From contig JAUVWV010000005.1 of assembly GCA_030603925.1 (NCBI GenBank), positions 1 through 33,376 on the forward strand: 33,376 nucleotides of DNA. The letters run 5' to 3'. Below are positions 10,027 to 12,258 of this stretch, piece after piece. Under the pieces are notes generated by a model, which saw only the letters and a program-made list of their open reading frames with translations, ran no database searches and had not been told where the DNA came from. The position numbers and the translations under genes were made by a program. Within the stretch, counting starts at the first letter, position 1, and every line of letters starts with the position of its first letter. This DNA comes from Thauera sp. Its GTDB lineage: Bacteria; Pseudomonadota; Gammaproteobacteria; Burkholderiales; Rhodocyclaceae.

Positions 10027-10569
10027 TCATTGTTGTGCGCCGCCGTCGGGCGTCTCGGCAGCCTTCGGCTGGATCACCGCACGCACCCGCCCGCCGGGCT
10101 GTGCGTTGCTGCCGGGGGCTGCGGTGACGACGTAGTTCTCGCTCAGTGCGTCGTACTCGATGTAGTTGCCGCGCACTTCGTCGCCGCCGCTCTTGACCCG
10201 GGCGCGCACGAACAGCTTGGCGCGTTCGGTGCGGCTGTCGTACTCGATGCGCTCGGCTTCACCCTCGACATACTCGTTGGTGCCCTCGCGCCGCTGGCGG
10301 AAGGTCGCCAGGCGGTTGCCGCTGGCCGTGGCGACGCCGTTCTGGAAGCCGTCGGCGCCCTGGGTGACGACGAGCTTGTCGCCGCGGATCTGCAGCGAGC
10401 CCTGGCTCAGGATCACGTCGCCTTCGAAGATGTGGGTCTTGCTGCGGTCATCCACGGTCACCAGATTGGCCTCGATGTTGACCGGCTGCTGGCGGTCGGC
10501 GCGCTCGGCCAGTGCCGGGGTGGCAAGCAGGGCGAGGGCGAGCAGGGTGGTGCTGGCTTGAAGTCTCAT
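10027..10569 (-). CDS. lptA: Lipopolysaccharide transport periplasmic protein LptA
   Basis: Signal peptide then RADRQQPVNIEANLVTVDDRSKTHIFEGDVILSQGSLQIRGDKLVV (OstA-like fold); directly downstream of lptC. Confidence 0.92.
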   Translation of the reverse strand: MRLQASTTLLALALLATPALAERADRQQPVNIEANLVTVDDRSKTHIFEGDVILSQGSLQIRGDKLVVTQGADGFQNGVATASGNRLATFRQRREGTNEYVEGEAERIEYDSRTERAKLFVRARVKSGGDEVRGNYIEYDALSENYVVTAAPGSNAQPGGRVRAVIQPKAAETPDGGAQQ

Positions 10570-11147
10570 GGCTGGTTCCGTCCGCTGCGCGGCATTGTGG
10601 CGTTGACCCTGCCGGTGAGCTGCAGGGTTCCGAACAGATTGTCCGCGCGCATCCCCTGGCCGTGGATCACCGTGCTGCCGCGCGTGAGTACCACCGGCAT
10701 GTCGCTCGCCGCGCGCTCGTCATCGGGCCACACGGTGAGGGTCTCGGAGGCAAAGGTGCTGTCCGCTTCGCCGGGGGCGCCGCTGCGCCGCCCGCGCACG
10801 TCGCCGCGCAGCAGGATTTCCTCGCCCTGGCGGTAGGCCTCGCCGTGGGCGGCCACCAGGTGTACGGTCGGTCCGCCGGAGTCGTAGCGCAGGCGCGGGT
10901 TGGTCAGTTCGGTGACGTCGGTGTGCGGATAGTGGACGATGCGGTCGGCGAGCAGTTCGTAGCGCTGCCGGCCGCGCTCGTCGAAGCTGATCAGGCGCGT
11001 GCCCTCGGCGCTGAAGTCCGGCTTGCCGCGTTCGACCACCGGCGCCCGTGCTTCCTGCGGCGCACTGACGCGCGCCAGCCAGAGCGTGCCGCCGGCGAGC
11101 AGGGCGAGGGCGACGACGGGCTACAGGTGGTGGGAGGGAATCGCCAT
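10566..11147 (-). pseudogene. lptC: LptC (LPS export ABC transporter periplasmic protein) reading frame interrupted by an in-frame TAG at codon 9 (11121-11123)
   Basis: Minus-strand read from ATG at 11147: MAIPSHHL*PVVALALLAGGTLWLARVSAPQEARAPVVERGKPDFSAEGTRLISFDERGRQRYELLADRIVHYPHTDVTELTNP...; the ORF track only offers a GTG start at 11039, after the TM segment. Confidence 0.75.
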
Positions 11148-11152
11148 GTCGG

Positions 11153-11266
11153 TCAGGCCGGAGAGGGAGCAGGCATGGCGTTCGCGCGAGTCGGGCAGGC
11201 GAGCATCCGGCCGCCGACGGCGAAACCCGTCAGGCGGATACCGGCCGGGGGGCGCAGGGCAGGCAT
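11153..11266 (-). pseudogene. Apparent kdsC remnant: N-terminal ~15-20 codons of a KdsC-like protein followed by unrelated sequence and a stop
   Basis: MPALRPPAGIRLTGFAVGGRMLACPTRANAMPAPSPA*, in the expected kdsD-kdsC-lptC position and overlapping the kdsD stop as TGATG; the beginning resembles the GIRLMGFDVDGVLTDG N-terminus of KdsC but without the aspartates. Confidence 0.5.
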
Positions 11267-12258
11267 CAGATCACCTTCGCCAGCATCAGGTCGTGGGTGG
11301 TGAGGGCGCCGATGAGGCGGCCCTCGGGGTCGATCGCCAGCAGCTGGCTGATGCGCAGGCGCTCCATGATCTCGGCGGCCTCGACTGCCAGGGCGTCGGG
11401 CGAGATGGTGCGCGGCGAGCCGCTCATCACCTCGGCCAGGCGGGCGCTGCGCACGTCGCACCCGCGCTCCAGCGCGCGCCGCAGGTCGCCGTCGGTGAAG
11501 ATGCCTACCGGGTGGTGTGCGGCATCCACCACCGCGATCATGCCCATGCCGCCGCGCGTCATCTGCAGCAGCGCGTCCTGCAGGCTGGCATCGGCGGCGA
11601 GCGCCGGGACCTTGTCGGCCGGGCGCATCACGTCGCGCACATGGGTGAGCAGGCGGCGCCCGAGTGCCCCGCCGGGATGGGAGCGGGCGAAGTCGTCCGC
11701 GCCGAACCCGCGCGCATCGAGCAGCGCTACGGCCAGCGCGTCGCCCAGCGCGAGCGCCGCGGTGGTGCTGGCCGTGGGGGCGAGGTTGAGCGGGCAGGCC
11801 TCTTCGCTGACCCCCGCGTCGAGGTGCACGTCGGCCTCGCGTGCGAGCGGGGACGTCGGGTTGCCGGTCATCGAGATAAGCCGGGCGCCCTGGCGCTTGA
11901 CCAACGGGACGATGGTGAGCAGTTCCTCGCTCGAGCCGGAGTAGGACAGGGCAATCACCACGTCCTCCGGGGTGATCATGCCCAGGTCGCCGTGCGCGGC
12001 TTCGGCCGCATGCACGAAGTAGGCCGGGGTGCCGGTGCTGGCCAGGGTGGCGGCCAGCTTGCGGGCGACATGCCCCGACTTGCCGATGCCGGTGACGATC
12101 ACCCGTCCGTTGCGCTGCAGGATCAGCGCCACGGCACGCTCGAACTCGACGCCCACCCGCTCGGCGAGGGCGGCCACGGCGTCGGCCTCGATGCGCAGCA
12201 CCCGGCGCGCGAGCGCGGCAGCGCCTTCGGCTGTGGGGGCGGGATGGGGTCGGTTCAT
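11266..12258 (-). CDS. kdsD: D-arabinose 5-phosphate isomerase (SIS domain + CBS pair)
   Basis: VIVTGIGKSGHVARKLAATLASTGTPAYFVHAAEAAHGDLGMI, SYSGSSEELLTIVPLVKRQGARLISMTGN, FTDGDLRRALERG. Confidence 0.95.
   Translation of the reverse strand: MNRPHPAPTAEGAAALARRVLRIEADAVAALAERVGVEFERAVALILQRNGRVIVTGIGKSGHVARKLAATLASTGTPAYFVHAAEAAHGDLGMITPEDVVIALSYSGSSEELLTIVPLVKRQGARLISMTGNPTSPLAREADVHLDAGVSEEACPLNLAPTASTTAALALGDALAVALLDARGFGADDFARSHPGGALGRRLLTHVRDVMRPADKVPALAADASLQDALLQMTRGGMGMIAVVDAAHHPVGIFTDGDLRRALERGCDVRSARLAEVMSGSPRTISPDALAVEAAEIMERLRISQLLAIDPEGRLIGALTTHDLMLAKVI

Follow-up and report, generated by a model that had tools for sequence, protein, structure and literature searches.

An in-frame amber codon in the lptC frame of a Pseudothauera draft genome, probably a consensus error or a recent private allele, next to a decayed kdsC remnant

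The lptC frame of the window (the whole stretch of 33,376 nucleotides analysed here) is interrupted by an amber codon immediately before its membrane anchor, which raises the question whether the organism makes LptC in an unusual way, has lost it, or carries no such codon at all. The frame (10566..11147, minus strand) starts with the ATG at 11147 and reads MAIPSHHL*PVVALALLAGGTLWLARV...NQP*, with the TAG at 11121-11123 as codon 9, exactly as in the initial annotation, the coordinates of which proved correct on re-reading. Downstream of the TAG the frame is uninterrupted as far as the TGA at 10566-10568, and a profile search with this part identifies TIGR04409 with 149.7 bits against a cut-off of 38 (E 5.9e-44), which bears out the earlier reading of the sequence as convincing LptC. 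The N-terminal membrane anchor, PVVALALLAGGTLWLARV (11067..11120, minus strand), a hydrophobic stretch that aligns with congeneric LptC, is encoded in frame, albeit 3' of the TAG in the present consensus. The first common in-frame start past the TAG is, as noted before and again found on reading the frame, a GTG at 11039 (11037..11039, minus strand), the product of which lacks the anchor. The next gene, lptA (10027..10569, minus strand), is intact judging by its frame and profile match, and its start codon and the lptC stop share bases (ATGA). Promoters, terminators and repeats were sought around the TAG site and yielded nothing useful. Given that the codons on either side of the TAG can be matched to LptC of congeners (MAIPAHRIYPVVALALLAG in P. 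rhizosphaerae), the interruption is not an artefact of a chance open reading frame.

Comparison with relatives shows what the codon should be. In the alignment, all five congeners and the relative G014 have TAC or TAT opposite the TAG, in agreement with the earlier proposal that a TAC codon for tyrosine would be restored by a single change; in the wider set, tyrosine is retained across the Azoarcus/Thauera group, with phenylalanine, leucine or other sense residues further out. The homologues possess the same hydrophobic helix, and their starts coincide with the ATG at 11147 or lie close to it, so that the native LptC does not start downstream; the condition under which the initial annotation would have been refuted, a native protein that begins past the TAG and has no TM, does not hold. 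In Pseudothauera lacus (L033, genome G003), the lptC start is apparently GTG where other congeners have ATG. A family survey detected an lptC match in 195 of 200 genomes, about 160 of these matches being listed, and among the matches listed no early stop was found in any other family member. Stops in eleven listed matches were considered as possible parallels, fetched and inspected, and all turned out to be natural C-terminal stops, as did, on separate reading, a TAA in the lptC of G003; because the other listed stops are ordinary C-terminal ones, the early stop is private to the window assembly among the matches listed. The window gene resembles known LptC (TIGR04409, YrbK, the LPS export periplasmic protein of the LptB2FGC complex) in its full-length profile match, in the kdsD-lptC-lptA gene order and in the in-frame N-terminal hydrophobic helix, but differs from it by the TAG at codon 9, which is absent from the other listed family members.

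The remainder of the gene bears no sign of decay. No second stop or frameshift is present in the 184 lptC codons past the TAG, and pN/pS values computed from codon 10 onward are 0.41-0.51 for the window gene against four congeners and 0.77 against the most distant congener, compared with 0.32-0.66 among the computed congener pairs. These values are comparable, which indicates that lptC is not relaxed, and the combination of a single lesion with normal constraint implies that the lesion is recent or altogether absent from the organism. The source genome (G000, Pseudothauera) is a draft of 3.5 Mb in 416 contigs, 86% complete and 4.6% contaminated. No other in-frame lesions were detected when genes across the 33 kb window were compared with those of G005 and G001, or in four other loci of this genome; other stops in the window alignments were examined as candidate lesions and discarded, their positions being upstream of the real starts. 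In the absence of any other obvious error, the assembly is not generally poor at the window, which counts against the reading favored below. A second lptC copy was not found in the 86% complete genome, the incompleteness of which means that the sequence still lacking could hold such a copy or a tRNA that suppresses amber codons.

Taken together, and given that the close relatives all have tyrosine at this codon, these observations are most likely explained by an error in the consensus or by a private, recent nonsense allele, with the error slightly ahead; together the two readings carry a high probability, and a new biological mechanism appears less likely. The lesion would then be a single-base change private to the window assembly, in an otherwise normal, constrained lptC. 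The LptC of the organism would be made from the ATG at 11147 with a sense codon at position 9 (tyrosine in relatives), would be inserted into the membrane via its N-terminal helix and would work with LptB2FG and LptA as its partners, so that neither recoding nor bypass would be required. In the recent-allele variant, the nonsense allele would be present in the sampled strain or in part of the population. Among the options offered in the initial annotation, sequencing or assembly error is the one that the comparative data favor, alongside a private recent allele; suppression and bypass are not borne out, and a restart at the GTG is very unlikely, for the reasons given below.

A firmer lesion than the TAG, missed in the initial annotation, lies directly upstream. 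The neighborhood kdsD, kdsC, lptC, lptA is present at this locus except for kdsC, which sits between kdsD and lptC in six of six relatives examined. The kdsD gene (arabinose-5-phosphate isomerase; 11266..12258, minus strand) is intact, as indicated by its frame and profile match, and its TGA overlaps (TGATG) the ATG of a short frame (11153..11266, minus strand) that stops 5 bases short of the lptC ATG. Of 173 kdsC codons, 37 are left here, in frame: the first approximately 19 correspond to the beginning of KdsC, the last approximately 18 to its end, and the identity at either end was reached by none of 5000 shuffles. To judge from this alignment, the remnant is what was left when a deletion removed about 136 internal codons and preserved the frame. 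It has decayed since, with 13 second-position changes relative to G005, compared with at most 2 in congeners, and it reads GFAVGG in place of GFDVDG, so that both catalytic aspartates of the DxD motif are lost (DxD to AxG); neither this motif nor the full HAD domain that define KdsC (TIGR01670) is present. No KdsC above the cut-off was found elsewhere in the 86% complete genome. The same holds for five Thauera-type genomes, in which lptC directly follows kdsD with no kdsC in between (L052, L055, L056, L057 and L058) and no KdsC scores above the cut-off. The window resembles these genomes in both respects but alone keeps the 37-codon in-frame remnant, of which the Thauera-type loci retain nothing. 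A further locus, L129 of genome G200, likewise has kdsD followed directly by lptC, without kdsC. The comparison of these loci indicates that kdsC loss is real and old, and that it has recurred within the family. The locus does, accordingly, carry real losses, which counts against the reading favored above, but from the kdsC loss alone no decay of lptC follows.

The rival explanations each carry a low probability. That the TAG is fixed in the species, with LptC made scarce through natural readthrough or not made as an anchored protein, seems improbable. Readthrough of a fixed TAG by a near-cognate or suppressor tRNA, yielding enough LptC, is quite unlikely, even though constraint on lptC persists past the TAG and the base directly 3' of this codon is C, a weak termination context: stop codons followed by C are leaky. 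Against such readthrough, no CUA anticodon was found among 34 tRNAs (all Rfam tRNA matches in the genome, read with ARAGORN), a set from which about a dozen tRNAs are missing because the draft is 86% complete. Furthermore, TAG is the normal terminator of 3 of the 35 window genes, no other in-frame TAG was seen within the window, and RF1 is intact (prfA, 535.9 bits, no stops). Since this codon ends three window genes and RF1 is intact, the organism reads TAG as a stop, and recoding of the lptC TAG is not supported.

Very unlikely, too, and ranking behind readthrough, is a real lesion that is tolerated, either through a bypass involving LptF or LptA or through an unanchored LptC restarted from the GTG at 11039. 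Precedents for such tolerance come from E. coli, where LptC without its TM domain is still functional and the deletion of lptC is viable when R212 of LptF is replaced, as in the R212G/S/C bypass mutants (PMC4986956, PMC9972910). The window genome differs from these mutants in that its LptF keeps the arginine: R-Y-E within GRRYEG corresponds to R212-F213-E214 of E. coli (residue context from PMC9972910). With this arginine retained, the known bypass has not evolved here, and an evolved LptC bypass, judged by the sequence of LptF, is unsupported. An LptC restarted at 11039 would be devoid of any membrane signal or signal for periplasmic export, the lptC gene is not relaxed, and a genuine early stop would probably be harmful to lptA too, perhaps by reducing the amount of LptA, because the lptA ATG overlaps the lptC stop. 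The genome has intact genes for LptB, LptD, LptF and LptG; a split profile match of LptG was considered as a lesion and dismissed, the frame being intact and the gap reflecting divergence. The least likely of these rivals is that lptC is becoming a pseudogene jointly with its lost neighbor as parts of one decaying LPS locus. The decayed kdsC remnant directly upstream speaks for this scenario, but kdsD, lptA, lptB, lptD, lptF and lptG are all intact, lptC has one lesion only and evolves under normal constraint, and the Thauera-type genomes that lack kdsC keep an intact lptC.

If the TAG were nevertheless real and fixed, the organism would be a natural Gram-negative in which LPS export relies on scarce or unanchored LptC, and hence a test, set up by nature, of whether a cell can do without anchored LptC. 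The likelier case, the consensus error or recent allele favored here, serves as a warning against taking single stops in draft assemblies for biology. The repeated loss of kdsC, with a decayed in-frame intermediate at the window locus, is a modest yet well-founded evolutionary finding, and it directs attention to the Kdo8P phosphatase that serves Kdo synthesis in these bacteria.
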